Positions 2,261 to 39,385 of a DNA stretch of 64,000 nt are shown one piece after another (position 1 is the first letter of the stretch; each line of letters begins with the position of its first letter). The translations under genes and the position numbers were made by a program. Source of the DNA: Onthophagus taurus (lineage: Eukaryota; Arthropoda; Insecta; Coleoptera; Scarabaeidae). The stretch lies in NCBI RefSeq assembly GCF_036711975.1, contig NC_091966.1:33549501-33613500 (forward strand), given 5' to 3'. The notes beneath the pieces are model-generated. The model worked only from the letters and a program-made list of their open reading frames with translations, ran no database searches and was not told the origin of the DNA.

Positions 2261-3482
2261 CTCTACTATAATCGCCACACTTTTTCATTCGTAGCATCAC
2301 CAGATATTCTAGCTAACTTACAGTTTGCATTTTAAGTTACTTTTAATTTTTTAAAAACTTTACAATTTGATTTTGAAAGTAATAAATTTAAAAATCTCAT
2401 AGCCGTTGAAAAGATTTACTATGTATACAATATTCTAGTTTGTAGTTGATTATTCAAACATCTGCTTAGTTTTACTATATCTAATAAGAATATGGGTATA
2501 AAAACAATTAATTAGTTTTAAAAACATCTGTCTAAATACTTGTACTAGAACATATGTACCCACATCACCTACATATAACAGTTGCAACAAACTAGTTATA
2601 ATTGCTATTTAATCCTTTCCTGGTTTCCTGTTTTAATTGATCATCAAAATTGGTTTTATTCAAACCATTTTGATACCAAAGGATTTTTTTTGTCGTTTTA
2701 AACTAAGGTATATTTTACAACAAACGATCCCTTTGTTTTGCATTAAAATCGTGTGGTTTCGAAAACGCAACATTCCTATGTAAATATCGTTAAGGCGGGG
2801 GTCTGGTTTCGACAAAAAGTTGCGGGGTAGAAGCAAGGAACAACGCGGTGTCCCCACAGATGGGCGCGTCTCTCAGGAGAAGTGTTTAATATCGGCGCTC
2901 GCCATTCCGATCACGACACCGGGACCCCGGACCATAATAGGAATAAATAACAGAAACCGTCTGCGGAATTAACGAAATTTATGGCGAGCCTCAAAGTCTG
3001 AAGTGACTTTGACGAACGGGAACCGATTCCAATTCGAAAAGAGAGGTGCTGGGCGAAGAGTTGTTGTGAGAAGTTCCTTTTCTCTATATCTCTCTGTCTT
3101 TTGGAATACAAAAATTTAAGAACAAAAAAATGTTTCGTTGTTTTTATCGCGTTACACAGACGAGATTATTGCAAATTAAAATGTGCCCTTGGTGTAATAA
3201 TAATTATCATTAAATCAACACAGAAAAATAAATATTTTAATTTTTTTTTAGATTGTTAATTCTATTTTGAATTGTGACAATGTTTGGAAACTCAAATCCT
3301 TCTTTTGTGTCGAAATTTTTAGCAGCCCACGCAGTATTTTCGTAGTATACTTAAATAAACAAAATTATGTGAAATTAAATCTTATCACATTTCGCTAATT
3401 AAATCTGCAACAAACTTGAACCAGTTAAATACGTTTTCTCACATTGATATATTCATGAAATAATATTAAAGAAAATTGAAAA
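2261..3482. other. Intergenic, upstream of SLC5-1
   Basis: No gene is seen. A locally GC-richer patch lies at about 2790-3080 inside AT-rich surroundings. Its short ORFs look like by-products of the composition. The SLC5-1 promoter should lie at the right end, but no clear TATA box is visible. Confidence 0.4.
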
Positions 3483-8251: not shown

Positions 8252-8484
8252 TTAAAAAATATTTATTTCACAACTAATTCGTTTTTTATTTTTTTTTAAA
8301 TCTTTTCCTAAATAAGATTTAATATATTTGCTATTTCATTACATGACGTCTTGGTCGTATTTACATATTTACTCTAACGACGAGCAAAATGACTTAAGAA
8401 ACGGTTTTAAAATTGCTAATCATATAATAAACTAATTCGTAAGATTGTAATCGAGAATAAAATACTGTTTATTTTTGGGTATTG

Positions 8485-8492
8485 TATAAAAC
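8485..8492 (+). promoter_or_regulatory. TATA box of SLC5-2
   Basis: TATAAAAC sits 51 bp before the ATG. The block from the TATA box to the start is nearly identical upstream of SLC5-3, so the core promoter was duplicated with the gene. Confidence 0.5.
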
Positions 8493-8535
8493 CTTAGTTT
8501 TATTAAATTATTTTTAAAATGTTTCCGCGATTACC

Positions 8536-11500
8536 ATGGAGAACTCAACATTAACTTTACAAGATATCTTAGGAATTAAATTTACATGGTACGATTATTC
8601 ATTTTTCTTATTGATGCTACTTGCAAGTGCGATAATAGGTGTTTATTATGGATTTTATAAAAAACAACAAACCGCTGAGGATTATTTATTCGGTGGAAAA
8701 TCTTTGGGTATTATTCCAATGGCTTTATCATTAACAGCAAAGTAAGTTAATCATTTTTATTTTAATTTAAATTATTAAAATGTTTTTTTAGTAATATTTC
8801 GGGAATAGCTTTATTGGCTGTTCCATCAGACGTTTACAAGCATGGAATATCATTTTGGTTTACTTACGTAAGTTTAATCTTCGTAATATTCGCTTCCTAT
8901 AAAATTTTCGTGCCCGTATTTGCTAAATTAAAAACAACGAGCACATTTGAATATTTAAAACTAAGATATGATACAAAAACTCGATTATTGGGTTCAATCC
9001 TTTATCTTGGACACATCATTTTAGTTTTACCCATCGTTATTTATATTCCAGCTTTAGCTTTAGTTCAAGGTAATTTCACCATATTATTTAATCATTAATA
9101 ACGTTTTTTTTTTGTTCAAGCGACCGGCATCAATTTACATTTAATCAACATATTATTATGTGCAGTTTGCATTTTTTACACAAGTATTGGTGGATTAAAA
9201 GCTGTTGTGTATTCAGATGCGCTTCAATCGATTGTTATGATAGGCGCTTTAGCTATTGCTTTTACTTTGGGTGTTATTAGATGTGGTGGAATTGAAAATA
9301 TATGGAATACCTCGTATGAAAACGAACGATTAACGTTGGTGTTTGATTTAGATTTTACTAAAAGAAATGGATTTTGGGCAGTTTTAATCGGCCAATTTAT
9401 CGCTTGGATGAGTTTTATGGGTATTAATCAAACGTATATTCAGAAGTGTTTAGCTTTACCGTCACAAAAAGATATTACAAAAGTTTTGATTATGTTCGCA
9501 ATAGGATTATTTATAATTGGTTCATTATGTAATTTTACTGGATTGATTATGTTTACCGAATATTCAACTTGTGATCCATTAGAAGCGGGAATTTTACAAA
9601 AACAAGATCAATTACTTCCATATTACATCATGGACATTGCAAAACAACTTCCCGGATTAGCTGGATTTTTCATTGCAGGAGTTTTTAGTGCGGCTTTAAG
9701 TACAATGTCCGGAATGCTTAACAGTTTATCTTGTACAATTTTTGAAGATTTTATTTCTCATCGATTACCAAAAAACACTTCGCAACGAAAAATTAGCACA
9801 ATTCTAAAACTAATTGTTGTTATAATTGGAGTTATCAGCACGATTAATGTTTTCATTGTTGAAAAGCTCGGGGGGATGTTAGCTTTGGCGAATAGCCTGT
9901 CTGGAATTACAGCCGGTCCGATTTTAGCACTTTTCGCTGGTGGGATGCTTATACCAAAAATAAATTCGAAAGTAAGATTTATTATGCAAATTTTATTTTA
10001 ATTAATAAATTGATTTTTTGCAGGGTGCTTTTTGTGGTACTTTAATATCTGTATGTTCAATGGCAATTGTTGTTCTTGGTTCTCAATGGTACCAAATTAA
10101 TGGTTATATAACAACACCACCTCTTCCGGTTTCAATTGAGGGATGTCCTTTGAATGGAACATTTACAACAAAAACAAATATAAATATAACGTAAGTTCAT
10201 TAATTAATGATGTCTTAAAAGTAGTGTGCTAAATGAAAATGAATTAACCCTAGGATGCATAAACCGGGCCTCTCAGGCCCGGTGAGCATTTAGTTACTAT
10301 AGTTATTTTATTGGTTAAGTATCCTAGGGTTAAAAAAATGACAATTTATAAAATATTGTATAAAATTGTGATATAAATTTTAAGGATATCTCAAAATCGA
10401 TTATTCTATCAAGGAATCATGCAGAGTGTTTTTCAATGTCTGAATAAGTTGCATATCTCAAAATCTCTAAGCTGTTGTAATTATTAAAGCATGAAATAAC
10501 ATGATGCATGAAATTTAGATCTTGTCCATAAGATTCCAAAAGAGGACTCTTCTAACTTGGTTCTTTTACATCTACGTAAAAGTTAAATATTTTTAAATAA
10601 AAGTTATGCAGATTTCTTAGTCATTAAATCTAGAGCTTTTCTTCTAAAGCGATACAGCGTCTGCCGATAAGCAGGGAGTGTGCCAGAGGGTCTTCTTAAA
10701 CTGTCTATACTAGCCCAAAAGTGCTATCGGCAAATGTGGGAGTCTCGATAGACAGAGAGCTAGTTAGAAGTCGTATTCGAATTTTCTAAGATAGTTTTAG
10801 GATGTTACAGTTTTCTATACTTGAGAAAAATAATAACGATATATATTCAAAAATCGAAGTGTTCCTCTTCGAACTATGTAGAGTAGTCCCAAGTTGTAGC
10901 AATCTCTTCTTTTAGAGACACTAAATTCTAAGTTTACAATTCAATCGTCAAAATTAAATAATTAATACCTCCGGTCTTACGGTAAATCTGGTGATGTCGA
11001 TAGACCAATAGTATACTAGAGAAAGCCTATACCAATTATCTAGAGTATTTCCAAAACGCTGCAGTCTCTATTTCTTGAGACTAGAAATTCTTAGGTTACT
11101 ATTAAAAATGAAGTTTATTCAAAAAGTAAACAAAACTTATTTGCTCATCTGAAAAATATGGTTTTGTGGATAGGGCATATTACTAATATCTAGAGAACTT
11201 TCTGAACATTCAGAAAATAGTTATTCGGTGAAGGACTAATTGGGTCAACTATAATTTTTTGATTCTCAATCAGATGCGGACTCAAATATGAATCTAACCT
11301 CAGTCAATTGCTTAATAATACTCGTATGCAAATCAACATTACATTTATTGCGTTTAACGTAAGCATCCCAGAACAATGGATTTTCTTGTTAAATATGAGT
11401 AAAATCATCACCTGGTAAATTATAATAATTTGTGTACTTCATCTAGTTTTGTTTGGTTTTCTTATTTTATTTTGATGCTACTGTAATTAAAAAGTGATTA

Positions 11501-12002
11501 AGATAAGATATGATTTTTTAAAATACATACTACGCCATTCGCGTTTATCTCTTAACTTTTATGGTCTTCAATTATCTAACATTCAAATCTCCTACTTTCA
11601 CCATGATGACAACATTTTGGTTGTATTTCAGCTTAAACAAGATAATTACAACTTATTTGCTAAATATATTCTTTTGAAGCAACCTGCATAATTGTATTAA
11701 TATTTCAAATTTATTTTAGGTTATCTTCTCCTTCAAACCAAGTACCATATATTTTTAAGGTGCCATTTTATTGGTACAGTAGTATGGGATTGATTATAAG
11801 CTTAGTATTTGGTATCATAATAAGTCAATTTGTAAAAGATCAAAAATCGAAAATACTTTATAAGGATTTATTTAGTCCTGTTATTCATCGATTTTTAACA
11901 ACAAAAGATGAAGAGAGTTCTAAGGACGTTACTGAAACGTTGATGGTAAACAAGTTTAACGAAGAAAGTAATACAGAAATGTTTGATAATGAGAATAAAT
12001 AA
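8536..12002 (+). CDS. SLC5-2: sodium-coupled solute transporter, intact
   Basis: Five exons: 8536-8741, 8792-9069, 9121-9971, 10024-10190, 11720-12002; the frame closes to 594 residues. Family marks: DYLFGGKS near residue 56, SGIALLAVPSDVY from about 71, YSDALQ at 192-197, CDPLEAGILQKQDQLLPYY at about 312-330, LPGLAGFFIAG then SAALST at 351-356 (sodium-site helix), and a final membrane helix in exon 5. Predicted multi-pass cell-surface symporter coupling sodium to uptake of a small organic solute. The start ATG is in the context ACCATGG and follows a TATA box. Intron 4 (1.5 kb) carries a TTAA-flanked MITE. Twin of SLC5-3 by a recent tandem duplication. An AATAAA overlaps the stop region. It appears functional, in contrast to its twin. 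Confidence 0.92.
10248..10329. mobile_element. 82-bp TTAA-flanked MITE (piggyBac type)
   Basis: The element starts CCCTAGGAT and ends with its reverse complement ATCCTAGGG, and is flanked on both sides by TTAA (10244-10247 and 10330-10333), the piggyBac target site. Near the left end is a perfect hairpin, ACCGGGCC-TCTCA-GGCCCGGT (10263-10283). The paralogous intron of SLC5-3 (about 17147) has the same flanks with a single TTAA and no insert, so this is an insertion after the SLC5-2/SLC5-3 duplication. Confidence 0.85.
10334..11719. other. Rest of SLC5-2 intron 4
   Basis: AT-rich intron DNA that aligns in blocks with SLC5-3 intron 4 (for example 10740-10930 with 20030-20290, and 11160-11400 with 20300-20600). 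A short ORF on the minus strand of the SLC5-3 copy is not preserved here. No function is visible. Confidence 0.6.
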
Positions 12003-12009
12003 ATAAAGT

Positions 12010-13094
12010 TAAAAAAAAAATAAAACTATTTTCTTTCATTTTCTAAAAATTCCAAAGTTTGATTTAAAGATTTATACCTATATTGATTATGATGTAGATT
12101 ATACACAATGATTTTTCATTTCTATTTCATGTTTCTTAGGAATAAATGGAAATATAACTGGACTTAGTAATTCTCTTGGAACTTCTTTGTTATAATTTCT
12201 TGTAAAAATTAATGATTAATGCAAACATTATGCATAAAATTAAACCCATAAGTCCATATATACCAATAAAATTGAAGTCTAAATATGTAAGGAATATCTG
12301 CGTGAGACGTTTTAAAAAGATTTTTTTAAAATATATTTTAATTAATAAATTTAACAAAATTACCTTAAAACATGATAAAATTTGGTTATATTGTTTAAAT
12401 TTGAAGGATATCCTTCAATTGAAACAGGTAAAGGTAAATCACTTAAATAATCACTATTTTGATAAAATTGTGATCCAAAAACCACAAAAGCCATGATTGA
12501 CATAGAAGCAATACACAAAAAGCACCCTAAGAAATTAAAGAATGAAATATTGTTTTCAATCTTAAAAAAACATACTTCAGCGTTTATTTTTGGAATTAAC
12601 ATTCCAGCAACAAAAAGTCCTAAAATCAATCCTGAAATAACTCCTTCCATGCTATTCGTTAAAGCTAATAACCCACCAAGTTTTTCAACAACCAATACTA
12701 AAAAAGTACAAATTAACTCAGTTATAACAATGATAGGTTTAAGAATTGCACTAATTTTTCGTTGAGACGTATGTTTTGAGATGTACTTCGATAAAAAGTC
12801 TTCGTAAATTGTGCATGTTAATGAATTCAAAGACGCCGATAAAGCGCTTAAAGCAGCACTAAAAATCCCTGCCACAAATAATCCGGCTAATCCAGGAAGT
12901 TGTTTCGATGAATCCATAGTGTAGTAAGGTAATAATTGATCTGGTTTATTTAAAATTCCTGCTTCAACGGGGTCACAATTTTCATACTCAGTAAACATAA
13001 CTAATCCCATAAAATTTGTTAAAGATCCAATTGAGATCAAACCAAACGAGAATATACATAAAACTTTTATTACATCCGATTTTGTTGGTAAAGC
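12010..13094 (-). pseudogene. 5'-truncated copy of SLC5-4
   Basis: The minus strand matches SLC5-4 from its 3' end (21330) through exons 5 and 4 and most of exon 3, up to the base corresponding to 22391, and stops there abruptly inside the coding exon. Exons 1 and 2 are absent. It retains [19 protein letters not shown] and [14 protein letters not shown], but a small deletion near 12520 shifts the exon 4 frame and exon 5 has an insertion near 12085. It therefore cannot make a transporter. It lies tail-to-tail with SLC5-2 just as SLC5-4 does with SLC5-3, which fits one tandem duplication of the whole block. Confidence 0.88.
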
Positions 13095-13181
13095 ATCAAA
13101 TTTATAATTTAATTAATTAATTAATTTTTTTGATTAATAATTAATTAGTTAAATTTTTTGATTAATAATTAATAATTTAAT
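13095..13181. other. AT-rich duplication junction
   Basis: About 87 bp of nearly pure A/T sequence, with repeated TTAATTAA-like words and two copies of a GATTAATAATTAAT-type motif. To the left is SLC5-4-like exon 3; to the right, from about 13182, is SLC5-1-like intron 3 (matching from about 7589). It is the seam of the tandem duplication, with filler or slippage-expanded sequence. Confidence 0.7.
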
Positions 13182-13283
13182 TAATCAAATCTACTCAAAC
13201 CAAATAGATTTGTTCTTAATGTAATTTAATAAACATCATTACAACTTCTTATTTAGACAAAAATATTCAAGCATAAATAAGTG

Positions 13284-13770
13284 GTCATACTATGCCATGT
13301 AGATGATGCGATGCTTGTGCCGGAGAACGAAATGATGATAAAATCACACAAAAGAAAATGAAATTTAAATTCCTGGCCATCGAAATATTTGGAAACGGAG
13401 ATGTTGACACGGAAGTAAGAAATCAAGCTACGGCAGTGTTAAAGGCAGCAAATAAATATATTAGAACTGAAGCCAAAGTCCAGATCTACAAGACTGCAAT
13501 CTACCAGCTCGAGAAAACAAAAAGAATACTAGACACTAGAGAAATAAAAATAGTGCGTAAAAGAGCTCCAAAAGCACGAGTGGTTAGAAAAAGAAGTGTA
13601 AATATTAGACAAACATACGGAATAGATATCAGCAATGACTGGGTATTAAACAAAAAGGAAAAATAGAATGAAGACATCAATCGCATGACAGAAGAACGAA
13701 TTGCGGGAATAACGAGTGTCAAATTACCATCAGGACGGAAAAAGATGGAGCTTCAACCTTCCAAATGACT
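13284..13770 (+). mobile_element. LINE 3' fragment (reverse transcriptase C-terminus)
   Basis: Plus-strand translation starts near a decayed catalytic motif (CHVDDAMLVPEN, normally YADD). It continues through FKFLAIEIFGNGDVDTEVRN, IYKTAIYQLEKTKRILDT, then NDWVLNKKEK, NRMTEERIAGI and LPSGRKK. This is the order of the C-terminal half of a widespread insect endonuclease-RT LINE. It has stops and a small deletion between IYKTAI and the TKR block. It sits inside the SLC5-1-derived intron copy and is absent from SLC5-1 itself, so it landed after the duplication. Confidence 0.75.
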
Positions 13771-14040
13771 AAATACGGGCAAACAAAAAATGTGAAGAAA
13801 AACAGGCAATTATGCCTATATACAGAAGGAAGAAGAAATTTTGTACACTCTCATCTTCCAATTTGTTCATCTTCTTTCCTACTTCTTTGTACTTTCTTCC
13901 TCCACCTCTAAATTGGTGGTGATCATTTCGGATAATATTGGATTGTTATTTCTAAAACAACTTGTTTTTCCGTATTATCATCCGTCTCTAAAGGCTGATC
14001 CATGAATTTTTCAAGTTTGAAGTCTGAAATTTTAAAAGAT

Positions 14041-14515
14041 TGCAATATATGTTGACCAGTTTGGGATTGATATTGTATTAACTTAATCAACTGATATCAT
14101 CTATTAATTTATTAACTTAGAAGAGGTCGCTTGCGGCCGTTGCTCTGCAATATATGATGTTCAGTTTTAGGTTTATGTTGTATTAATTGCTACGCCTCCG
14201 CCATAAGCGATCATGGTTTAATCAGCCCAAAATCATCTATCATTTTTCGAGGTTGCTTGTAACCGCGGTTTCACAATGTATGATGTTCAGTTTTTATTTG
14301 CAACTCCTCGGCCGTAGGCTCTTGGGGCTTAATAAGCCGAAATTAATTTGTTTGGATTGGGTCTTCACTATATGATGACCAATTTTTGGTTGACGTGGCA
14401 TTAATTTGATCAATCGATTATTGATCCATTAACTTAGCTGAGACCGTTTGCAGCTGAGGTGCTATAATATACCATGCTCAGTTTTACGTTTATGTTGTAT
14501 TACTTGATACTTAAA
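14041..14515. repeat. Degenerate tandem repeat, about 100-bp unit
   Basis: Five loosely related units begin at about 14041, 14147, 14271, 14364 and 14461. Each starts with a word like CAATATATGATGTTCAGTTTT and contains a GGTCGCTTGCGGCC- or CCTCGGCCG-like GC-rich patch. Unit length varies from 93 to 124 bp. Likely an old minisatellite or remnant of a repeat element. Confidence 0.5.
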
Positions 14516-15422
14516 CAACAACAGTTGAAATGAGCTACTCCAATTTAACTATAATTACAATTAAATTTTGAATTTTTAAATTAATTTTATCAAAATTGTA
14601 TTGAAAATTACCAACCCATCAAATAATATGTAAAGAACAAAATTTATTTTGAGTACTTTCATCGAATAACTCGGGGCTACTAGACACAACATACAACGAT
14701 TTTAATTCCAATTTTATTACAGGGAGCTTATTATGGTTCTATTATATCATTAATTCTAATGGCAATCATTGTATTTGGATCACAATGTTATCAAAATAAT
14801 GGTTATTTAACATCTGTACAACGATTTTACCAACTTCAATTGAGGGATGTTCGTTTTTGAATTCAACAATATCCCAAAATTATGATTTTAAAATAGATGG
14901 AAATTCGACATCACATACAATAAACGATGTTCCTTACATTTTTCGAGTACCTTTTTATTGGTATTGCACAATAGGATTTATTTTCGCTACTTCAATTGGT
15001 TTATTAATAAGCCATTTTAGTACATCTAAAAAATATCGATAAAGAACTATTTAGTCCGGTTATTTATCGTTTTCTTTCTAGAAATAGCGACGAAACTATT
15101 TACGTTTCTGAAAGGTTAATGGAATCTAAATAAATAATTAAAAAATATTTATTTCACAACTATCTCTTTTCTTTTAATTTTTTCGTTCTTTTAATTTTTC
15201 CTAAATAAGATTTAATATATTTGCTATTTCATTACATGACGTCTTAGTCGTATCTACATATTTACACTAACGACGAGCAAAATTACTTAAGAAAGTTTTA
15301 AAATTGCTAATCATACATATAATAAACTAATCAAGATTATAAGATTATAATCGACAATAAAATGATGTAGAAATAGTTTTGTTGTTAAAGAGATTAAAAA
15401 TTCTATTTAATTTTGGCTGTTG

Positions 15423-15430
15423 TATAAAAG
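15423..15430 (+). promoter_or_regulatory. TATA box of SLC5-3
   Basis: TATAAAAG lies 51 bp before the ATG, in a block almost identical to that of SLC5-2. It argues that the start is the ATG at 15474 and not the upstream in-frame ATG at 15420, which overlaps this site. Confidence 0.5.
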
Positions 15431-17578
15431 ATTAGTTTTGTTAAATTATTTTTCAAATATTTCCGCGATTACCATGGAGAACTCAACATTAACTTTACAA
15501 GATATCTTAGGAATTAAATTTACATGGTACGATTATTCATTTTTCTTATTGATGCTACTTGCAAGTGCGATAATAGGTGTTTATTATGGATTTTATAAAA
15601 AACAACAAACCGCGGAAGATTATTTATTCGGCGGAAAATCTTTGGGAGTTATTCCAATGGCTTTATCATTAACAGCAAAGTAAGTTAACTAATTTTATTT
15701 TAGATTATATAATTATTAAAATTTTTTTTAGTAATATTTCAGGAATTGCTTTATTAGCTGTTCCATCAGACGTTTACAAGCATGGAATTTCGTATTGGTT
15801 TACTTACGTGAGTTTAATCTTTGTAATATTCGGTTCGTATAAAATTTTCGTTCCCGTATTTGCTAAATTACGAATAACGAGCACATTTGAGTATTTAAAA
15901 CTCAGATATGACACAAAAACTCGATTATTGGGTTCAATACTTTATCTTGGAAACATCATTTTAATTTTACCCATCGTTATTTATATTCCAGCCTTAGCTT
16001 TAGTACAAGGTAATTTCACCACATTATTTAATCATTAATAACGTTTTTTTTTTATTTAAGCGACCGGCATCAATTTACATTTAATAAACATATTATTATG
16101 TGCTGTTTGTATTTTTTACACAAGCATCGGTGGATTAAAAGCTGTTGTGTATTCAGATGCGCTTCAATCGATTGTTATGATAGGTGCTTTAGTTATTGCT
16201 TTTACTTTGGGTGTTATTAGATGTGGTGGAATTGAAAATGTATGGAATACCTCGTACGAAAACGAACGATTAACGTTGATGTTCGATTTAGATTTTACTA
16301 AAAGAAATGGATTTTGGGCAGTTACAATCGGCCAATTTGTCGCTTGGATGGGTTTTATGGGAGTTAACCAACTGTATATTCAGAAGTGTTTAGCTTTACC
16401 GTGTCAAAAAGATGTTATAAAAGTTTTAATTTTGTTCGCAATAGGATTATTTATAATTGGATCATTATGTAATTTTACTGGATTGATTATGTTCACGGAG
16501 TATTCAAAATGTGATCCATTAGAAGCTGGAATTTTACAAAAACAAGATCAATTACTTCCATATTACATCATGGACATTTCAAAACAACTTCCCGGATTAG
16601 CTGGATTTTTCATTGCAGGAGTTTTTAGTGCGGCTTTAAGTACAATGTCCGGAGTACTTAACAGTTTATCTTGTACAATTTTTGAAGATTTTATTTCTCA
16701 TCGATTACCAAAAAACACTTCACAAAGAAAAATTAGCACAATTCTAAAATTAATTGTTCTTATAATTGGGGTTATCAGCACAATTAATGTTTTTATTGTT
16801 GAAAAGCTTGGGGGGATGTTAGCTTTGGCGAATAGCCTGTCTGGAATTACAACCGGTCCGATTTTAGCACTTTTCGCTGGTGGGATGCTTGTACCAAAAA
16901 TAAATTCGAAAGTAAGTTTTATTATGCAAATTTTATTTATGTTAATGAATTGTTTTTTTGTAGGGTGCTTTTTGTGGTACTTTAATATCAATGGTATCAA
17001 AATAATGGTTATATAACAACACCACCTCTTCCGGTTTCAATTGAAGGATGTCCTTTGAATGGAACATTTACAACAAAAACAAATATAAATATAACGTAAG
17101 TCCATAAATTAATAATGTTTTAAAAGTAGTGTGCTAAATGAAAGTGAATTAAAAAAATGACAATATATAAAATATTGTATAAAATTGAGAAATGATTTTT
17201 AAGGATATCTCAAGATTTTAATTTCTGATTTGATTTTTTTAATTAATTTTATTTGATTTGTAAGTAACTGGTTTATTCTATCAAGGAATCATGCAGAGAG
17301 TTTTTCAATGTCTGAATAGGTTGAATATCTCAAAATCTCTAAGCTGTTGTAATTATTACAGCATGAAATAACATGGTTTAGATCTTGCCCATAGGATTCC
17401 AAAAGAGGACTCTTCCAACTTGGTTCGTTTCTTTTACATCTACTTCTAAATATTTCTTTACATTTTTGAAATGATTGTGTATTTTTAAGTAAAGAAAATC
17501 TTAATTTAAAAGCAAAGGTTTGGGAAATTTCTGCAAATAAAAATGGGTGTCGCTCCAGAAACAACGAGTCATGTAATA

Positions 17579-19139
17579 CCGTATTTTCTCGAATGTAATC
17601 CGCACCTTTTTTACAAATTTTATGTGCTCTAATATCAAATGCGGATTACAATCGGGTGCGGATTAGATTCGCAGTCGTATAGTTGCAATTTGGAAAATAG
17701 TAAAATAAAATCAGATTATAACAATAACACTTTATTAAAGCTTTTAGAACGATATTTACATTTTTATGTATCATGTTCTTCCCATATTACGTCATCTTCG
17801 GATCAATATAGATCAATTCGGATTATACAAAACTTCTTAAATGATGTTATAATATTGTTTTCAGGGATCGTTTTCCATGTCGCCTACACTCACTGAACAA
17901 GTTCAGAAGCTCCTTTAATTGCTCCCGGTTTTGTTAATTCTCGAGTTTGTTAATATACATATACATACACAGGTTGTAGTATGGATGTTATACCACCAGG
18001 TATTATTATTATGACAAGAAGTCTAAACCAAGGGCAACCAGTCTATGATTAGTTAATATCCTTATTTAATAATCCTCCTGGTCTAAGACTCCATACTTGT
18101 CTTAATCATTCCATCATCAGCTTTTCCATTATCCATCCTTTTTGTTGTGCCCTAACTAGAACGTCATTCAGGAAGTCTTTCAGATTTCAGAATGGTTTTT
18201 TTCTCAGTATTAATAATGACAGCAATTTTTCCCTATCACTCTGCGCATCAATGTTATGCGCAATTTTTCGCAACCACTCGTTTATAAAGAAATTTCCCGC
18301 ACACCTCTCCTTTCCAGTGTGTAATTGGGTGGCATATCCAGATATACTGCCATTTCGTCGGCATTCACAGTTTGAGACAAATTGAAATTTTCTTGAAAAT
18401 CATTAGGAGCTTTTGGGAAATTGTAGTTCTGCGCCTCAACGATAACACCATTCGGCGCATAAATCCCATAATCCAACCTTTGCTAGTATTAAAATTTTTT
18501 TAGTCCCTCCTTTCGTTTTTCTTGAAAGAACTAGAAAACTGCCTCGTCAATTTCATGAAATCGTCTCTTCGTTGGCCCGGTAAATTTTTTGCACGATGCC
18601 TCACAGTCTGCAATAGCTACCTTGTCTTTCCGCAACAGCCGCAACGTTACTTTCATTAACAGCAAAAATTGTACTAGCTTTTCGATTTCCTTAACGCTAA
18701 CTTAATAACATGTCTGCTGTATAGAAGAACCTCTTAGATTTTTGCTACTTTTTTTTATAATTACGCTATTATATGTATAATTAAGCACACACCACGTTCG
18801 AGCTACTACGAGGGCAGTATATGAACGGAATTCGTGCTAGGCATTACTATTTATTTTTAAAATTATAATTATTTTCCAATTTTTTCTGGCTTGGTAAATT
18901 TAAAGTCTAGTCTAATAAAAACTCGTCGTAAGCAAGGTTTCTTTAGGTCCATCAGCGTCAGTCAACAGAAAAAATATATATTTATGGTTAACAACAAGCA
19001 TCGCATCGTTTTGGTGTTGTCGAATTGCTCAAAGAAAGATGCGGATTACATTCGCAAACTAAATTTTTTTACCACTATGCATTTTTAAAATCGGGGTGCG
19101 GATTAGATTCGAGCGCGGATAAGATTCGAGAAAATACGG
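17579..19139 (-). mobile_element. pogo-type DNA transposon, decayed, in SLC5-3 intron 4
   Basis: 1,561 bp with inverted ends (CCGTATTTTCTCGAAT at the left, its reverse complement at the right) flanked by TA on both sides, the Tc1/mariner-pogo target. The minus strand carries broken DDE_1-type transposase pieces: VNADEMAVYLDMPPN near 18340 (usual form DETPVY.DMP), a block at about 18030-18180 reading VLVRAQQKGWIMEKLMMEW, and PGGITSILQP near 17985. The frame is interrupted several times, so it is not autonomous. Confidence 0.85.
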
Positions 19140-19141
19140 TA

Positions 19142-21040
19142 TATGCTGGTGGAACTGTTTTAAATATATGCAATTCAGAATAAGTGTAATGCGAAGTGTG
19201 TACCAAAATATTAACAAGTTTTCCAATTATTATCGCGGATTGTCCACCAAATACAAGTAGGTTTCGTTTTGTGTATAATAATTTAATCGGAGAGACAAAT
19301 TTTGGGGTAGAGCCACAAATTGTAGTTTTTATGGATGGGTGGAAATATAGTTCAAGTAAAAAATATTTATGGTTGGCATGTAACAGGAGAAGCGGAAATT
19401 GCTCATACGTTATACGAAGTTATAAATGAAAAAATAATAATGAAGCCGAAAGAGATTGGTTTTGAACTGCATATTAATTTCACTCTACATATAATAAGGA
19501 AAAACTTAGCAAAGAAAATACTATAAATGCAGTGCAACTTTATTTACCTAATTTATTTACTACAAATGTTAAAGCCTCTTATACAACATTCTTCTTCAGC
19601 TGGTTATCACATATTATTCAGAAGTTCCTTCAGTCATCTCGTACTGTAGAAGGGGAACGTTTTTCACTTTTACAGAGACTTACTTCGATTACGTATCATA
19701 GTTTTTCTAAGGATGGATCGGTGACCAAATGTTTCGTTCTTATTTGACTAGTGCGCATTCCTAGTTCTTGAAAATCATATGTCGATCTGCCAGGTTTATC
19801 AGTTCTAACTTAAAAATATGTCACTTCATAATCTTGTGTTCTGCACAACACCACACTGAGATTGGTAATCATTGCCATAGTACGAAGATAACTTGGATAA
19901 CATCTTAAACTTTCGTAGGTTCTTTGGTTCTCTTTAATGTCCCCACACAGTGCCTGTCTTTATCTGAAAACATGGGAGTTTCTCACAAACAAATTTTGGA
20001 AGTTTCTTTGTAGGAATATTTAAAAATATGAGAGTCTGGATAGGCTGAGAGCAAGTTAGAGGTCGTATTCGAATTTTCTAAGATAGTTTTAGGGTGCTAC
20101 AGTTTTCTATACTTGAGATAATAAATTGTAAGTTTATTACTAATAACGATGTATATTCAAGAATTCGGCCCTTCTCTGCTACCACAGGTATAGGGATGTC
20201 GATAGGCAGGAGAAGTTGTAGAGTTCCTATTCGAATTATCTAGAGTAATCCCAAGTTGTAGCAATCTCTTCTTTTAGAGACACTAAATTGTATTAGTTGC
20301 TCAATGAAAAATTTGGGTTTGTGGATAGGACATATTACTAATATCTAGAGAGCTTTCTGAACATTCAAAAAATAGTTATTTAGTGAAGGACCTATTGGGT
20401 CAACTATAATTTTTCGATTCTCAATCTGATGCGGGCTCAAATATGAATCTAACCTCAGTACTTTGGTTAATGATGCTCGTATTATTCCTGATAAATGTTT
20501 AATATTATTATATTTGTCTGTCAATGAGTGCAAACCAACATGACATTTATTGCGTTTAACGTAAGCATCCCAGAACAACGGATTTTGTTGTTAAATATGA
20601 GTAAAATCATCACCTGGTAAATTATGTTAATTTGTGCACTCCATGTGGAAAATCTCAGCGTGTCTAAAAGTAAGTCAACATTAATTGTAATATTTCTAGT
20701 GTGAAATGCTGGAATCTTATTAGATCATCCTTCCTTCATTTTCATTTAGTTTTGTTTTAGTTTTCTTATTTGATTTTGATGCTACTGTAATTAATAAGTG
20801 ATTAAGATATGATTTGTTAAAATACTTAAAATACTTACTACGCCATTAGCGTTTATCTTTTAACTTTTATGGTGTTCAATTATGTAACATTCGAAATGGA
20901 AATCTACTTTTACTATGATGCTTAAACAAGATAATTATAACTTATTTACTGAATATATTAGAATAATTTTTCAATACATTTTAGCATACTACTTTTGAAG
21001 CACCTTCCATAAATGTATTAATATTTTAAATTTATTTTAG
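19142..21040. other. Rest of SLC5-3 intron 4
   Basis: 19142-20030 has no counterpart in SLC5-2 intron 4 and holds only short ORFs that I cannot assign. It may be another inserted, unidentified repeat. From about 20030 to 21040 it aligns in blocks with SLC5-2 intron 4. Confidence 0.5.
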
Positions 21041-21345
21041 GTTATCTTCTCCTTCAAGCCAAGTACCATATATTTTTAAAGTACCATTTTATTGGTACAG
21101 TAGTATGGGATTGATTATAAGCTTAGTATTTGGTATCATAATAAGTCAATTTGTAAAAGATAAAAAATCGAAAATACTTTATAAGGATTTATTTAGTCCT
21201 GTTATTCATCGATTTTTAACAACAAAAGATGAAGGGAGTTCTAAGGACGTTACTGAAACGTTGATGGTAAACAAGTTTAACGAAGAAAGTAATACAGAAA
21301 TGCTTGTTAATGAGAATAAATAAATAAAGTTAAAAAAAAATAAAA

Positions 21346-23312
21346 CTAATTTCTTTCATTTTCTAAAAATTCCAAAGTTTGATCTAAAGATTTATATACA
21401 CCATGATTTTTCATTTCTATTTCGCGTTTCTTAGAAATAAATGGAAGTATAACTGGACTTAGCAATTCTCTTGGAACTTCTTTGTTATAATTTCTTGTAA
21501 AAATACTAATGATTAACGCAAACATTATGCATAAAATTAAACCCATAAGTCCATACCAATAAAATTGAATTCGAAATATGTAAGGAATATCTGCGTGAGA
21601 CGTTCTAAAAAAATTTCTTTTTAATAAATTTTAATTAGTAAATTTAACAAAATTACCTTAAAACATCATCAAATTTGGTTACATTTTTTAAATTCGAAGG
21701 ACAGCCTTCAGTTGAAACAGGTAAAGGTAAATCAATCAAATAACCACTATTTTGATAAAATTGTGATCCAAAAACCACAAAAGCCATAATTGACATAGAA
21801 GCAATACATCCATAAAAAGCACCCTATAAAATTAAAGAAAAAAATTTTGTATTGAATCTTAAAAAAACTTACTTTAGCGTTTATTTTTGGAATTAGCATT
21901 CCAGCAACAAAAAGTCCTAAAATCGATCCTGAAGTAACTCCTTCCATACTATTCGTTAAAGCTAATAATCCACCAAGTTTTTCAACAACCAATACTAAAG
22001 TAGTACAAATTACCCCAGTAATAACAACGATAATTTTAAGAATTGTGCTAATTTTTTGTTGGGACGTATGTTTCGGGATATACTTCGATAAAAAATCTTC
22101 GTAAATTGTGCATGATAATGAATTCAAAGACGCCGATAAAGTGCTTAAAGCAGCACTAAAAATCCCTGCTACAAATAATCCGGCTAATCCAGGAAGTTGT
22201 TTCGATAAATCCATAATGTAGTAAGGTAATAATTGATCTGGTTTATTTAAAATTCCTGCTTCAACGGGGTCACAATTTTCATACTCAGTAAACATAACTA
22301 ATCCCATAAAATTAGTTAAAGATCCGATTAAGATCAAACCAAACGAGAAAATACATAAAACTTTTATTACATCCGATTTTGTTGGTAAAGCCAAACATTT
22401 TTGGATATAAATTTGATTTATACCAGTAAAAGCAGTCCATGCAACAAAGGCCCCTATTGTAACAGCCCAAATTGAATCCCGCTTTGTTAAATCTAAATCT
22501 GATGATAAATTTAATCTGTCGTTTTCCAAAGAAACCGTCCAAACGTTTCCTAATCCACCGCAACGAATTACTCCTAATGTAAAAGCTATAATTAAAGTAC
22601 CGATCATAACCGTTGATTGAAGAGCATCTGAGTACACGACAGCTTTTAATCCACCTACGCTTGTATAAAAAATACAAACAACGCAAACTAAGATTGTGAT
22701 TAAATGAATATTTAATCCAGTAGCTACAAAATACATAAATGTGTAAATGCTTAATAAATTATTAAAAAATTACCTTGCGCTAAAGCTAAAGCGGGAATAT
22801 AAATTACAATCGGTAAATAAAGTAATCTTGAAATTAAAAATAAACCAGACCCTAATAATCTTGTTTTTGTGTCGAATCTTAATTTTAAATATTCAAACGT
22901 GCTATTTTTTCCCAAAGAATAAAACACTGGGACGAAAATCCAATATGAAGTAAAAACAACCACTGAGGCGCTTACATAAGTAATCCAATAAGCTATTCCG
23001 TGACTATAAACATCCGGTGGTATTGCTAATAAAGCAATCCCAGAAACATTACTAAAATAATATTTTTGTATTTAAATCATCTATTTGAATAACTTACTTT
23101 GCTGTTAGCGATAAGGCCGTCGGAAACACAGTCATTGATTTTCCACCTAATAAATAATCTTTCGCTGTGGTTTGTTTTTTATAAAATCCATAATAAATTC
23201 CAATAAATGCACTTATTATTAACATTAAAAGAAAAAAAGAATTATCATACCACGTAAATTTAACACCAAGAATGTGTTCGAATGTTTGTGAAATTGACGA
23301 ATTTTCGTTCAT
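21346..23312 (-). CDS. SLC5-4: sodium-coupled solute transporter, minus strand
   Basis: Five exons: 23312-23098, 23051-22774, 22723-21873, 21823-21657, 21604-21346; the frame closes to 589 residues. Marks: [20 protein letters not shown] ending exon 1, [37 protein letters not shown] and [14 protein letters not shown]. Predicted multi-pass plasma-membrane symporter of the same subfamily as SLC5-1 to 3, sharing the fused 851-nt exon 3. It is the only plus-array member in reverse orientation. Its stop codon lies 22 bp from that of SLC5-3, so their 3' UTRs must overlap, and it is head-to-head with SLC5-5 across 1.5 kb. A truncated copy lies at 12010-13094. It appears intact. Confidence 0.92.
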
Positions 23313-24823: not shown

Positions 24824-27800
24824 ATGAATGAAAAAGACGTTCACCAAACGAGTACCATTGATAATCTACATTTAATTGCCGCCAGCATTTCCGATACTAG
24901 TTCAATTTATAATGAAAAATTTACCTGGTACGATTATTCCTTCTTCACAATTATGTTGGCGGCGAGCGCTTTAATTGGTGTCTACTTTGGATTTTATAAG
25001 AAGCAGGAAACGATGAAGGATTATCTATTCGGTGGAAAAAATATGGGCGTTTTACCCATATCCATGTCCATGACTGCAAAGTAAGTTATAATTTTAATTA
25101 AAATTCACATAATTAAAAAAAAATCATTTTAGTGCTGTTTCTGGAATATCTCTTTTAGCAATTCCAGCTGATATATATCGATACGGAACCGCTTATTGGT
25201 TTGGTTATCCCGCAACAATCTTAATAGTTGTATTGTCTTATTTCGTTTTCTTACCCGTCTTTTTTAAATTACAAATCACAAGTACTTTTCATTATCTCAA
25301 ATTGAGATTTGATACTAAAACAAGACTCTTAGGATCATTATTATATGGGATATATTCGTTTTTATATCTTCCAATTGTCATTTATGTTCCAGCTTTAGCT
25401 TTAGCTCAAGGTAAATTTAAAAAAAAATGTATTTATAAATTTAATACTTTTTTTTACAGCTACAGGTCTTCATTTACATGTAATAACTTGGTTGGTTTGC
25501 ATAGTTTGTATTTTTTATACAAGCGTGGGGGGTTTAAAAGCCGTCGTTTATTCAGATACATTACAATTTATTTTGATAATGAGTAGTTTATTAATTGTAT
25601 TTGTGATGGGTACTTATAAAGCTGGGGGAATTTGGAACGTATTAAACATTGCTTATGAAAACGAACGATTTTCAATTCCGTAATAAGAAAATATTAAATC
25701 AACAATTTTTTTTTTTAATTAATTTAATTTTAGAGCTGATTTTGATTTAACAAAAAGAGATACGTTATGGTCTGGAACTATAGGAATCTTTTTTACTTGG
25801 TTGTATGGTAATGCGATTAATCAAGTTTTGATTCAGAAATGTTTAGCTTTGCCATCAAGAAAACATATAAAAACGTAATTATTTATTAATTCAATTTATA
25901 AATAAAAAGTGATTCATACGTTTTTCTTTATTATTTTAGAAGCTTGATTCTTTATTGTATTGGTATATTTATAATAGGAACGTTATGCGTTACGAACGGT
26001 TTATTAATTTACGCTTATTTTTGGAATTGTGACCCAGTTGAATCTGGAATTTTAGAAAAACACGATCAATTAATCCCATTCTATATCATAAATATTTTAA
26101 AAATACCTGGGTTACCCGGATTATTTATAGCCGGAATTTTTAGTGCAGCTTTAAGGTAATTATTTAGAGCTTAATGTTTATAACTCACATTAATTTAAAA
26201 ATTTAGCACATTATCAGGAAGTATGAACGGCCTCTCAGGAACTATTTACGAAGATTTTATCGGACCAAGACTATCAAAGAAAATAAGCGAATCCACCAAA
26301 AGTAAAATTCTAAAATTAATCGCCGTTTTAATCGGTGCTATTTGTACTGTTTTGGTGTCCGTTGTTGAACATTTAGGTGGAATTTTAGCACTTTCAAATA
26401 GTTTATTAGGTGTTACAACGGGAACTATTGTTGGATTATTCTCGGTTGGGATGTTAATTCCAATGGTTAACTCTAAGGTAAAACTTTAACAAACTTTTTT
26501 GTTAACTATTGATTGATACTATATTTTTTGAAGGGTGCTTATTATGGTGGGTTAACAACATTAACTATTATGACCGTAATAGTTGGTGGGTATCAGTGGA
26601 ATCAAAGTCAAGGAAACTTGGTTTACCCAACTTTACCCATCTCAGTGGAAGGTTGTTCTAATTCGAGTATATTATTGGAAAATCTTAATAAAACGTAAGA
26701 CAATTAAATTATTATTGATATACAAGTGTCAAAAAAGATCGTTCCAACACATACTAATATGGTAACTAAGTTGATGTAAATTTAAATTAATATACCAACC
26801 TTTTGTATTGTAAATAATGGTTATCCCAAGAACGGTAGAACCCATCCTTTGTATCCTTCGTTCTTTTGTAATCTAGAAAAGTGCTTCTAGTTCTAGATCT
26901 AGTGTTAGTTCTAACATTAGCTAATTCCAAGTTTAAAATAGTAGTTCTCTTCCCCATTTTTGATGTCATCAACGGACCGTCGAGCTATGTACCTGTAACC
27001 GGAATGTAACTTAGTTTCTACCGTCCTGGGGATTTTCCATTTTCCATTACAGCTTCTTCGATGTAGAAGGTGCCTTGTACATCTGAGAACGTTATTTTTT
27101 GACAGTTTGTATAATGGACACTTTACAAGTAGTGTGAATTTCATATGAATAATTTCACTTTGAAATAAAATGAGCAAACTTTTTATAATAACTAGTTCGA
27201 AATTTCGAAATAACGAATCAATGCCTGATGATAAACTGCAATGAGCAACTTCTTGGGGTAAATTCTTCTAAATATATTAGCTCCTATCCAGCAACCATAC
27301 GGATAATGAGAGTATTAAATTGGAACCAATAAGCAATTTCGAATATCAACAAGAACGTATTGAATATTTAAGTAATGCAAAGATAAAAACGTAGGAAAAG
27401 TAAAAAACTTTTTTGAGAAATAATAATAAAAATGTTTAATTTTATCAAGTATACATGTTTCGAAACTAATGTTTCATCTTCAGTACCTAAATTTAAAAGA
27501 AAATAAGAAACAATTAACAAATGTTAAACGGAACGTGTTAATACGGTAGGAGAAATCGGACTTTGAAAAAGTGAACTTACTTGGATTAATATACAATAAA
27601 TGGAAAAATTATTAGGTAGTAGGTGGGGTTTTAAAAATATATCAAGATATCCTTCTACTTTTCAACAGATAAAAAATTATCATAAATAATTTTTAAAAAA
27701 TTATAAACAAAAAACCCTTTCAACAATCTAGTCAATCTTGGAATACAAACATACAATAGGGGTGTGGTTTAAAAAACGTTTTATGTCGGTACACGTACGG

Positions 27801-30800
27801 AATACAGAATGATGAAAAATTCTTTGAAGTAATCAGTTAAAATTTATGGTATAGGCGGGTGTATTTGTTATCTAATAATTCATTTAATAGAACATTGGTG
27901 TTATCCTTGGAATGTTTATAGATCTCATATTCTTCCAGTAAGTCCAACTTCAAAGATTTAGGTTGGTGATGAATGAGTTCTGTATTGTTAAGATTTATTT
28001 TATGATTAGTTTCATTAATATGTTTGAAAATCGCGGAATTTTTATCTTTATTATGTTCTTTGAAGCGTGTTAATAAATTTCTCCCTGTTTGACCTATATA
28101 AATTTTGTTACACTCACTACAGGAAATTTTGTAAACTCCATTGAGTAAGTGAAAATGAAATTTGTGTTTATTATTGACGAGGATATTGGAAATTTTAGTG
28201 TTGTTTTTAGTGGCTATGTATATGTTATGTTTTTTAGTTATGTGGTGTAATTGATTGATTATGGGGTTGTACTTAGATAAAGAAATATATTTAGGTGGCA
28301 GTTTGTAGTGAGGATAAATGAATGAGATGATTTTATTGTTATGTACTTTGTAGAAGATGGTTTGCATGTCTTTAATGTTATAACCGTTATTTAAGCCTAT
28401 TTTTATGATATTACAAATTTCCGAATTGAAATTTTCAGTGTTGAGGGGTGTGTTGATGGCTCTGTTGAATAGGAATCTAAACGCAGCCTCTTTATATTTG
28501 AAGCTGGTAAAGGAATTTTTAGGTATAATTGTGTCTGTAGTAGTGGGTTTACGGAAAATGTTGAAAATGAGGGAAGAATTGGATAGGTTTTTGGAAATTT
28601 TTAAATCTAGAAAATTAATGCTATTATTAACTTCTTTCTCAATTGTGTATTCGAGATTGCTGAGATTATTTATCAAATTAAATAGAGCTATAAAATTAGC
28701 ATCAGACCCATCATAAAGAATGAGGATGTCATCAACATATCTACAATAGAATTTTATATATTTGGTGGCAAAATGATTTTTTAAGGAAAATAATTGATAT
28801 TCTAAGTTGGAGACGTAAAAATCTGCAAGAAGGCCAGACAAGGGGGAACCCATAGGTAAACCGTCTGCCATTTCGTAGAAATGGTCATTAAAAATGGGTT
28901 CCCCCTTGTCTGGCCTTCTTGCAGATTTTTACGTCTCCAACTTAGAATATCAATTATTTTCCTTAAAAAATCATTTTGCCACCAAATATATAAAATTCTA
29001 TTGTAGATATGTTGATGACATCCTCATTCTTTATGATGGGTCTGATGCTAATTTTATAGCTCTATTTAATTTGATAAATAATCTCAGCAATCTCGAATAC
29101 ACAATTGAGAAAGAAGTTAATAATAGCATTAATTTTCTAGATTTAAAAATTTCCAAAAACCTATCCAATTCTTCCCTCATTTTCAACATTTTCCGTAAAC
29201 CCACTACTACAGACACAATTATACCTAAAAATTCCTTTACCAGCTTCAAATATAAAGAGGCTGCGTTTAGATTCCTATTCAACAGAGCCATCAACACACC
29301 CCTCAACACTGAAAATTTCAATTCGGAAATTTGTAATATCATAAAAATAGGCTTAAATAACGGTTATAACATTAAAGACATGCAAACCATCTTCTACAAA
29401 GTACATAACAATAAAATCATCTCATTCATTTATCCTCACTACAAACTGCCACCTAAATATATTTCTTTATCTAAGTACAACCCCATAATCAATCAATTAC
29501 ACCACATAACTAAAAAACATAACATATACATAGCCACTAAAAACAACACTAAAATTTCCAATATCCTCGTCAATAATAAACACAAATTTCATTTTCACTT
29601 ACTCAATGGAGTTTACAAAATTTCCTGTAGTGAGTGTAACAAAATTTATATAGGTCAAACAGGGAGAAATTTATTAACACGCTTCAAAGAACATAATAAA
29701 GATAAAAATTCCGCGATTTTCAAACATATTAATGAAACTAATCATAAAATAAATCTTAACAATACAGAACTCATTCATCACCAACCTAAATCTTTGAAGT
29801 TGGACTTACTGGAAGAATATGAGATCTATAAACATTCCAAGGATAACACCAATGTTCTATTAAATGAATTATTAGATAACAAATACACCCGCCTATACCA
29901 TAAATTTTAACTGATTACTTCAAAGAATTTTTCATCATTCTGTATTCCGTACGTGTACCGACATAAAACGTTTTTTAAACCACACCCCTATTGTATGTTT
30001 GTATTCCAAGATTGACTAGATTGTTGAAAGGGTTTTTTGTTTATAATTTTTTAAAAATTATTTATGATAATTTTTTATCTGTTGAAAAGTAGAAGGATAT
30101 CTTGATATATTTTTAAAACCCCACCTACTACCTAATAATTTTTCCATTTATTGTATATTAATCCAAGTAAGTTCACTTTTTCAAAGTCCGATTTCTCCTA
30201 CCGTATTAACACGTTCCGTTTAACATTTGTTAATTGTTTCTTATTTTCTTTTAAATTTAGGTACTGAAGATGAAACATTAGTTTCGAAACATGTATACTT
30301 GATAAAATTAAACATTTTTATTATTATTTCTCAAAAAAGTTTTTTACTTTTCCTACGTTTTTATTTATTACTAGAGAAATATGGAGAATTTCATCCCATT
30401 TATAATGCAAAGATATTCTGCGACTGCAGAATGATTGTGAACATGACCTAGATTAAATTAGTAAAACGAAATACGGCATAAAACTTGCTAATTAAACGTT
30501 GTTGGTGAACTAGTACTTTTTACGGATAAACGGCAATATATTGTGCATTATTCTAAACCAGCTTGTCAAATAAGTCATTAGATCCCTGGATGTGGTGAAG
30601 TTCATAAAGACTTTATATAACTTTATATAGACTTTATATAAGACTTTTTATAAAGACCAAGTATATACATAATGGAACTGTTAGATACCAACAAAGTCAA
30701 ATCACTCTGCTTTACTACACACAACAATATGTAAACATGATAAATGTAGAAAACGTACGAAGCAGAAAGGCCTTCCTTGCAACCCACCTCGAAATATAAA

Positions 30801-37223: not shown

Positions 37224-39385
37224 ATGGATTATACTTTTCAAATAGTCGATTATGTTATGTTGTGTTTAACAATTTTGTTTAGTATAGGAATTGGATTATA
37301 TTATGCAATTTTTAAAAAACAAAACACCCCAGAGGAGTACTTACATGGTGGAAGAGTAATGAATCCTTATGCTGTGGCTTTTTCAATCGTTTCTGGGTAA
37401 TAAACGATTATATCTTAATTAGTTTTATTGAATTATTCTTTTAGTATTATATCTGGAATTATTATGACATCGTTACCAACAGACATTTATTACTTTGGTT
37501 CTCAGTATGGTTTTTTACAAACACCAGCAACATTAATAGCATATTCAATAAGCTATTTTTGTGTTATCCCAGTTTTCCATAAACTTCAACTAACCAGTAT
37601 CTTTCATTATTTTGAGCTAAGATTTAATTCTAAAGTTAGAAAATTATCATCTTTTATGTTTACGTTTCAAGTTATACTTCAAATGCCACTCGTTCTTTTT
37701 GTAACTGTTTTAGTTGTTGCACAAGGTAAGTTTCTCAAAATTACAAAACAATTAAAAAAAATTAATTTATTTTTAGTTTTTAGAGTAAATTTATCCCATG
37801 TAACATTAATAATTTCTTTTATTTGTACCACTTATACGATTTTTGGTGGTATTAAAGCCGTAGTTTGGACTGACGCCCTTCAATTTCTTGTTATGTTGGG
37901 AGCGATGATTACTGTATTGATTATTGGAACAATTTCTGTTGGAGGAATTGAAAATTTATTTCGAATATCATACGAAAATGGACGAATTAAATTTGAGTAT
38001 GTATAATTTATTAATTAAACAGTTCAAATGACAAATTAATATTTCTAATAATAAATCATTTTAATAATTGTAGTTTCGATTATGACATGACTAAAAGGGA
38101 TACTGTATGGGGAGTTATGCTGACTTTGATTTTTCAATCTTTATCATTGAGTGGTATTGCTCAAGGAACGATACAAAAAATGTTATCGCTGAAGAATTTT
38201 AGCGACATTAAACGGTAATCTTAAATCTATTTTCCATAATTTTCTACTAAAATGAAAGTATTTGCTCGAACACATTTTTCTAGAAAACAAAATTATGAAA
38301 CATCATTAAATTTTAAATTAAAACTATCTATTTATTTTTAGAGCCTATTTATTTACAATACTTAGTTGGATTTTGTTATTAACATTAGGGACCTTAATCG
38401 GACTAATGCTTTTAGCTCGATATGTAATGTGTGATCCTTTAATCACTAAACAAATTAGTAAGCCAGATCAATTAATGCCTTATGCTATCTTGAATATATC
38501 CAGGACGCATCCAGGTTTGCTAGGAGTTTACGTTGCGGGAATCATCAGTTGTGGATTAAGGTATGATTAATTAAAACAATTCTAAAAAATAATTTCATAT
38601 ATTGTTATTTTAGTACATTATCGGCGAATTTAAATAGTTTATCTGCCACGATTTTTAACGATTTTCTAAGAAATTGTTTACCAGAACCTATAATAAGAAA
38701 ACATGAAATGTTAATATTAAAACTTATAGTTTTATTGGTAGGAGTTACTTGCACGGTTTTAACATATGCCGTAGAACATTTAGGAAATATACTCCCGTTG
38801 CTTGTTAATCTTTTAGCTCTTACAGGAAGCCCTATTGTTGGATTATTTTTTGCCGGATTATTTTTTCCCAGTGTAAACTCAAAAGTAAATTACAAAATTG
38901 TTAAAATAACCAATTCTTAAGTTATTATTTTTAGGGTGCTTTAATCGGAGGAATATCATCGCTCCTAATATTATCTTGGTTAATAATAAGCACATTTTGG
39001 TATAAAATAAGTAATCGCGTTGAATATCCAACGTTACCTACATTTATCACTTCATGTAATATTTCTGAAATCGCCAATATTTCAACGACCTCAACGTAAT
39101 TTTTTTTTTATTATTATTATTTCAATTATATCTTGTAATACTTGCAGGGATAAAATATTTAATAACGATCCAACTGTGCCAATAATGTACCAAATCTCCC
39201 ATTATTATTATAACCCAATTGGAGCTCTCACAGTGGTTATAATCAGCATTTTAATAAGTTACTTAACCAAGAAAAAGAACCATTATGTTAAAGATGATTA
39301 TTTAAGTCCGTTAGTACTCTATTTTAGAAAGAAAATAAGTTATTCAAAGTATAAAAGTGTAGAGCTTCGTGATATAAATTCATAA
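37224..39385 (+). CDS. SLC5-7: sodium-coupled solute transporter
   Basis: Eight exons: 37224-37396, 37445-37725, 37777-37996, 38074-38214, 38342-38560, 38614-38884, 38935-39095, 39148-39385; the frame closes to 567 residues. The short N-terminus starts MDYTFQIVDYVML. Marks: EEYLHGGRVMNP, SGIIMTSLPTDIYYFGSQYG, WTDALQF, CDPLITKQISKPDQLMPYA, HPGLLGVYVAGIISCGL then STLSANLNSLSA. The sodium-site helix has SCGLST where SLC5-1 to 5 have SAALST or close variants; the Ser/Thr pair is kept. Intron 2 (37726-37776) is 51 nt and stop-free in frame. Forms a tight subgroup with SLC5-8 and SLC5-9. Predicted plasma-membrane symporter. Confidence 0.9.

Follow-up and report, generated by a model that had tools for sequence, protein, structure and literature searches.

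The 64,000-nt window analysed here (C1:33549501-33613500; contig NC_091966.1 of the Onthophagus taurus assembly GCF_036711975.1, genome 290.8 Mb) contains two 5'-truncated arms of a Penelope-like element that meet head to head within a single target-site duplication. This dimer is probably a finished insertion of the Penelope/Poseidon type, made by two-ended target-primed reverse transcription. One duplication surrounds the dimer as a whole, and the two outer ends differ: one stops at the end of the element unit (termed N, untailed), and the other runs on into a short tail (termed T, tailed). All 32 dimers that we verified by sequence in this genome, from three Penelope families, have exactly one N end and one T end.

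Structure of the head-to-head dimer

Self-comparison of the window places the inverted arms at 27383-28853 and 28894-30364. Each is 1,471 nt long, they are 100% complementary and a 40-nt spacer lies between them, which bears out the original prediction of two identical arms of about 1.47 kb. As coordinate ruler we used a tandem unit of the same subfamily, 2,973 bp long and with an 837-codon open frame (L011:3769-6741, minus strand). The left arm begins at unit position 1465 and the right arm at 1508, so that the left one reaches 43 nt deeper into the reverse transcriptase (RT) gene; the two are joined at a common ATG of 3 nt. The claim that both arms start at the same RT motif was therefore not quite accurate.

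The left outer end halts at the end of the unit (...ACGTTTTTAT). The right outer end extends 38-40 nt into the next unit (...CATCCCATTTA), an extension that the left arm lacks; this tail covers the first codons of the open reading frame (ORF) of the element and matches the known "tail" of Penelope. The exact 13-bp repeat that had been predicted around the pair, TAATGCAAAGATA, stands once on each side and brackets both arms together. Between 2 and 5 of its bases may belong to the ends of the element (left ...ATA, right ...TA), with an unambiguous core of ~8-11 bp. An empty site of the window insertion could not be read: at the sensitivity used, the adjoining sequence is present only once in the assembly, with short partial matches further out. 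The same search for another dimer, L021, met a repeated left flank, for which the tally lists 224 matches.

A single duplication per dimer and the frequency of dimers

From the lone repeat it had been proposed that the dimer inserted in a single event. The search for other head-to-head copies and their flanking repeats supports this: 31 further verified dimers were found, each with one target-site duplication. The young subfamily was searched with a 400-bp 3'-end query at an identity of 97% or more, and 40 of 217 candidates were scored; two further searches had 40 of 45 candidates scored each, and all copy counts are lower bounds. Twelve of the 13 young loci found are head-to-head dimers, the sole exception (L019) being a lone copy that has a tail and a duplication of 12 bp. 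The remaining dimers are older members of family A (L020, L021, L027, L028, L032 and L033) or belong to two distant families with ~46-47% protein identity to family A, namely family B (L035 and L037-L047) and family C (L034 and L052/L053). Most of the young loci found are dimers, and these are finished insertions. The description of the window dimer as an uncommon replication intermediate is unsupported on both counts, and head-to-head Penelope structures had been published by 2013 at the latest (PMC3846280).

A duplication around the whole dimer was present in 31 of the 32 rows tested (29 of 10-15 bp; only 8 bp in L040 and L045; none in L031). With L052/L053, whose duplication was read by eye, the verified total comes to 32 dimers, 30 with duplications of 10-15 bp and two with 8 bp. 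A length of 12 bp was seen in 18 of the 30 sites compared. As a control, the flanks of the 32 dimers were paired across loci under the same search rule, and none of 992 pairings gave 10 bp or more; 14 gave 8-9 bp. The target sites are roughly two-fold symmetric, with A at -2 in 19/30 and T at +2 in 20/30 (raw counts, set against no background), and such a symmetric consensus is what one would expect of a symmetric enzyme. A preference for G/C beside the duplication stems in part from the way in which the edge of the duplication was defined.

Several candidates were left out of the 32: L031, with a damaged left end and no duplication; L055, an untailed arm with a tailed arm of only ~8 nt; the C12 array, whose left end lies beyond the contig; the pairs at C6:32.93M and C7:37.68M, known from hit tables only, both of which look mixed; and some unpaired ends. 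A C8 pair resembling two untailed ends was dropped, as it is one insertion within an inverted segmental duplication with flanks 99% identical; its two loci, L057 and L058 (C8:20.378M and 20.413M), lie 35 kb apart, and both hold the same Penelope insertion. At the start of its contig, L036 (C12:1-9800) is a near-perfect 8.1-kb palindrome of Penelope units whose arms meet at the 5' end of the pseudo-long terminal repeat (pLTR); it could be a subtelomeric array or the point where assembly stopped.

Tailed and untailed ends are paired in the verified dimers

Had each end been chosen independently at 50:50, half of the dimers would be expected to be NN or TT, and an all-mixed set of 32 would arise with a probability of 2.3e-10; no NN or TT dimer was found. 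Six single-arm insertions have a duplication, three with a T end (L019, L022 and L050) and three with an N end (L023, L048 and L051), which argues that both start sites are used about equally.

Haplotypes, truncation points and joints of the arms

Ten young dimers were compared arm against arm over 602-1,082 bp. Eight have no difference between their arms and two have one; the ten loci are all of distinct haplotype, and the nearest other locus differs by 1-4. In the old dimers L020, L021 and L027 the arms have drifted, yet each pair shares variants absent from the other aligned copies. Seven substitutions in 982 bp separate the arms of L020. L027 holds the same 377-bp insert in both arms (3009-3385 and 4842-5218), with 11-bp duplicated ends and absent from the other copies examined; it came either from the source RNA or by arm-to-arm gene conversion.

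The original prediction had further held that truncation and inversion were coupled. This stands in a statistical sense, since truncation points are correlated: 6/10 young pairs end within 160 nt of each other against 1.9 expected (permutation p = 0.001), and 6/17 family-A pairs do so against 1.65 expected (p = 0.002). Many dimers, on the other hand, have arms of very unequal length. The 160-nt threshold was picked after seeing the data and arm lengths were entered by hand; a threshold-free median log ratio gives p = 0.0001 for the 10 young pairs and 0.019 for the 17 family-A pairs, a set that includes L031 and excludes L029 and L030, in which both arms reach the same 5' end. In the six close pairs the untailed arm leads, by 20, 21, 29, 43, 78 and 153 nt. 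A fixed lag, with the trailing enzyme always 20 nt or more behind, was considered from family-A offsets of 20, 21, 29 and 43 nt and dropped, as the family-B offsets (read by eye from L038, L039 and L040) are 13, 3 and one of opposite sign.

The joints of the ten young dimers, read by eye, have 1-3 nt of microhomology in five and short insertions in the other five; the insertion in L010 includes a local fold-back copy. A GT-AG intron is absent from both arms of the short dimers L029, L030 and L046, where the exact sense-strand boundaries were checked, and, by BLAST coordinates, from L042, L043, L045 and what remains of L044. Its clean loss from both arms means that the lineage of those dimers passed through a spliced sense RNA, at insertion or in the source. 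In three short family-B dimers (L042, L044 and L045) the shorter arm ends at reference positions 171, 171 and 177, and this near-identity suggests a strong stop for reverse transcription.

Element identity and genomic setting

The element has a C-terminal GIY-YIG endonuclease in the same ORF as the RT. GIY-YIG scores 31.1 bits in each window arm and 31.6 in a full-length relative (Pfam cut-off 22.6). RVT_1 scores 54 bits in the full-length relative from the same genome and 20.6 in the left arm, below the cut-off of 29.6, with no match in the right arm. The predicted Penelope-like identity, with a 5'-truncated RT plus GIY-YIG in both arms, is upheld with that restriction on RVT_1. The truncated arms of the window do not themselves show pLTRs; head-to-tail units of 2,973 bp occur in a C1 array of the window element's subfamily, and direct pLTRs in L034 and L035. 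On its domain order, tail and pLTR structure, all read from sequence, we assign the element to the endonuclease (EN)-containing Penelope-like elements (Penelope/Poseidon type), and it is an ordinary member of its kind. Feature coordinates are collected in Table 1. About 10 codons at the 5' end of the left-arm open frame, and the first 5 codons of the right-arm frame, span the joint.

Table 1. Coordinates of the dimer and its parts in the window
Feature	Position	Strand	Remarks
Left 13-bp target-site duplication, TAATGCAAAGATA	27373..27385		last 1-3 bases possibly element
Left arm, 5'-truncated Penelope-like element, N end outward	27383..28896	-	unit 1465-2973
GT-AG intron-like stretch, left-arm counterpart	27487..27580	-	
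Left-arm open frame, stop to stop, 363 codons	27837..28928	-	RT C-terminal part + GIY-YIG
RT coding stretch exclusive to left arm, 43 nt	28854..28896	-	unit 1465-1507; final 3 nt ATG also the start of the right arm
Right-arm open frame, stop to stop, 343 codons	28879..29910	+	RT C-terminal remainder + GIY-YIG
cDNA joint, 3-nt microhomology ATG	28894..28896		
Right arm	28894..30364	+	unit 1508-2973
GT-AG intron-like stretch of pLTR, kept in right arm but cleanly absent from both arms of L029 and L030	30167..30260	+	
Tail, 38-40 nt (T end)	30365..30404	+	first bases of the next unit, including ORF start
Right 13-bp target-site duplication	30403..30415		first 2 bases possibly element

A CTGAAGA...GAAAC string at 30264 presumably resembles a hammerhead core, and we take CTGAAGATGAAACATTAGTTTCGAAAC at window 30264-30290 to resemble such a core with stem II. 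A search of Rfam gave no ribozyme match in the pLTR at the gathering threshold, nor up to E = 5, and returned just two weak matches of snoRNA type. Folding of the RNA 3' end with its tail was no better than that of shuffled sequences (z = -0.59).

The insertion lies within a clustered gene family: six open frames on both strands, at window 6222-22769 and 37419-38006, match the sodium:solute symporter family PF00474. Further along, a tandem repeat with units of ~246-294 bp (49190-50060) lies inside a 427-codon minus-strand open frame (48981-50264) that has no Pfam match.

Proposed two-ended priming and alternative explanations

The origin of the window dimer by two-ended target-primed reverse transcription may be pictured as follows. 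We infer that the endonuclease would cut both target strands ~12 nt apart and leave 3' overhangs, and that each target 3' end would then prime reverse transcription of the sense RNA of the element. From the inner site N one reaction would yield the left, untailed arm; the second would begin ~40 nt downstream, at the outer site T, and yield the right, tailed arm. Both cDNAs would end early within the RT gene, their two 3' ends would be joined at the 3-nt match, and fill-in would yield the 13-bp duplication. A purified anole Penelope protein, described in 2024, cleaves and extends both strands and uses two adjacent internal RNA start sites that delimit the tail (in the sections of PMC11167929 covered here).

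A single RNA molecule is the likely template of both reactions. Tentatively, we suggest that this one RNA may be copied simultaneously by two RTs, primed by both ends of the same cut at start sites ~40 nt apart and travelling in convoy, the untailed one usually ahead. Such a convoy would account at once for the pairing rule, for the haplotype that both arms share and for the correlation of their stops. If it is true, Penelope transposition would normally yield head-to-head dimers, whereas single copies and classical inverted pLTRs would arise when one of the enzymes dissociated early.

Two-ended priming may instead have used two RNAs from the same source, copied by one protein dimer whose subunits are locked to different start sites. 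This is a sub-case of the best explanation, so that their odds overlap, and we regard it as possible but doubtful. It accounts for one N and one T end and for the shared source. The anole protein is predicted to be dimeric (PMC11167929, in the part covered), and in four of the close pairs (window, L017, L018 and L026) the total cDNA lengths differ by no more than 20 nt, which would fit two enzymes that work for equal times. However, two RNAs of the same locus would have to be packaged each time, and ten haplotypes shared between arms are simpler to obtain from one RNA.

Self-priming is improbable as the origin of the window dimer. One strand, cDNA or antisense RNA, would fold at its end and be copied back into the second arm; head-to-head Penelope copies have been interpreted in this way in print, with an antisense template proposed (PMC3846280, sections covered). 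Palindromic joints, identical arms and loops as short as 13-43 nt agree with it, and local fold-back copying is visible by eye at two joints (L010 and L040). Folding back predicts, however, that the shorter arm was copied from the longer. Arm lengths are known for 31 dimers. The untailed arm is clearly the longer, by a margin of 13 nt or more, in 16 of them (window, L009, L010, L017, L018, L020, L026, L027, L032, L033, L034, L037, L038, L041, L042 and L043), and the shorter arm holds 36-40 nt that the longer one lacks. Among the others, L039 has an untailed arm longer by just 3 nt, 11 have a longer tailed arm, and in 3 (L029, L030 and L046) the 5' ends are about equal. In the window the longer left arm is untailed and the shorter right arm is tailed, so neither, as found, can have templated the other. 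A rescue would require the longer arm to lose its tail later, and to the same N site every time; removal of the GT-AG intron on the sense strand in several dimers also points to a sense RNA history and, for these dimers at least, speaks against the proposed antisense template. Simple folding back is contradicted for the 16 dimers and could survive for the 11 with a longer tailed arm.

Perfect palindromes are a known class of artefact, but an error of assembly or a fold-back sequencing read is very unlikely here: the palindrome ends exactly at the element ends with a tail at one end only, a fold-back read would mirror the flank as well, and 31 other loci have the same layout although their joints, lengths and duplications differ. 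That the arms came together through two independent insertions, or through later recombination between copies of an element that is repeated in the genome, is just as hard to credit given the single duplication around the pair and the private haplotype common to both arms.

Several points weigh against two-ended priming. In the parts of PMC11167929 covered, the start site of the anole protein did not differ from one strand to the other, so that strict N plus T pairing is not predicted from it. Besides the dimers there are single-arm insertions, namely the six listed above that have a duplication and five in which none is clear (L024, L025, L049, L054 and L056). In L038 the untailed end stops 13 nt before the usual N site. 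The N and T labels were assigned by hand on the basis of BLAST tables and printed ends, the type of end was already apparent in the hit tables that supplied many of the dimers, and the evidence is the assembled sequence of one genome alone. Later gene conversion between arms could be partly behind their identity; the drift between the arms of L020 makes it unlikely as the whole answer.

Comparison with known systems

Twin priming of human L1 offers a likeness, as two 3' ends at one target both prime and give an inverted joint. In L1, synthesis from the second primer begins at an internal position, and the inverted segment does not overlap the rest. The Penelope dimers differ in that both arms extend to the region of the 3' end, with almost complete overlap.

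Likenesses are also found in the Penelope elements of Adineta vaga (PMC3846280, in the sections covered). These have head-to-head or inverted pLTRs, palindromic inverted junctions, an intron in one copy and partial tandems, and one duplication around the insert (8-10 bp in their examples). An optional 31-bp tail at one inverted pLTR resembles the one-ended tail described here. The inverted arm in those examples is a pLTR of ~180-210 bp, whereas the present arms are up to several kb long. Self-priming was proposed for them; in our set its simple form is contradicted in 16/31 dimers and the one-tail rule has been counted.

The Poseidon protein of Anolis carolinensis is alike in cutting and extending both strands, in its two internal starts bounding the tail, in tandem units and in AT-rich targets (PMC11167929, sections covered). 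Its in vitro products have no difference in start between strands, whereas each verified dimer here uses each site once. The link to head-to-head genomic dimers is not made in the sections of that paper covered.

Much of this was already known. Penelope copies set head to head had been described, as had their tails and introns and the single duplication (PMC3846280), and two-strand, two-site extension had been seen in vitro (PMC11167929), each as given in the parts covered. We do not claim that the one-tailed, one-untailed rule or its argument against self-priming is new in print. The one-tail count and this argument were not found in the literature searched, including the covered part of PMC12910113, a search that left the 2004 and 2008 Drosophila virilis papers and a 2021 survey outside its coverage.

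These comparisons tie the structure of genomic dimers to the two-strand, two-site activity of a purified protein, and the genome record argues against self-priming for about half of the dimers examined. The one-tailed, one-untailed rule is a simple one; it renders the order of events testable and lends itself to counting wherever an animal genome contains elements of this kind.

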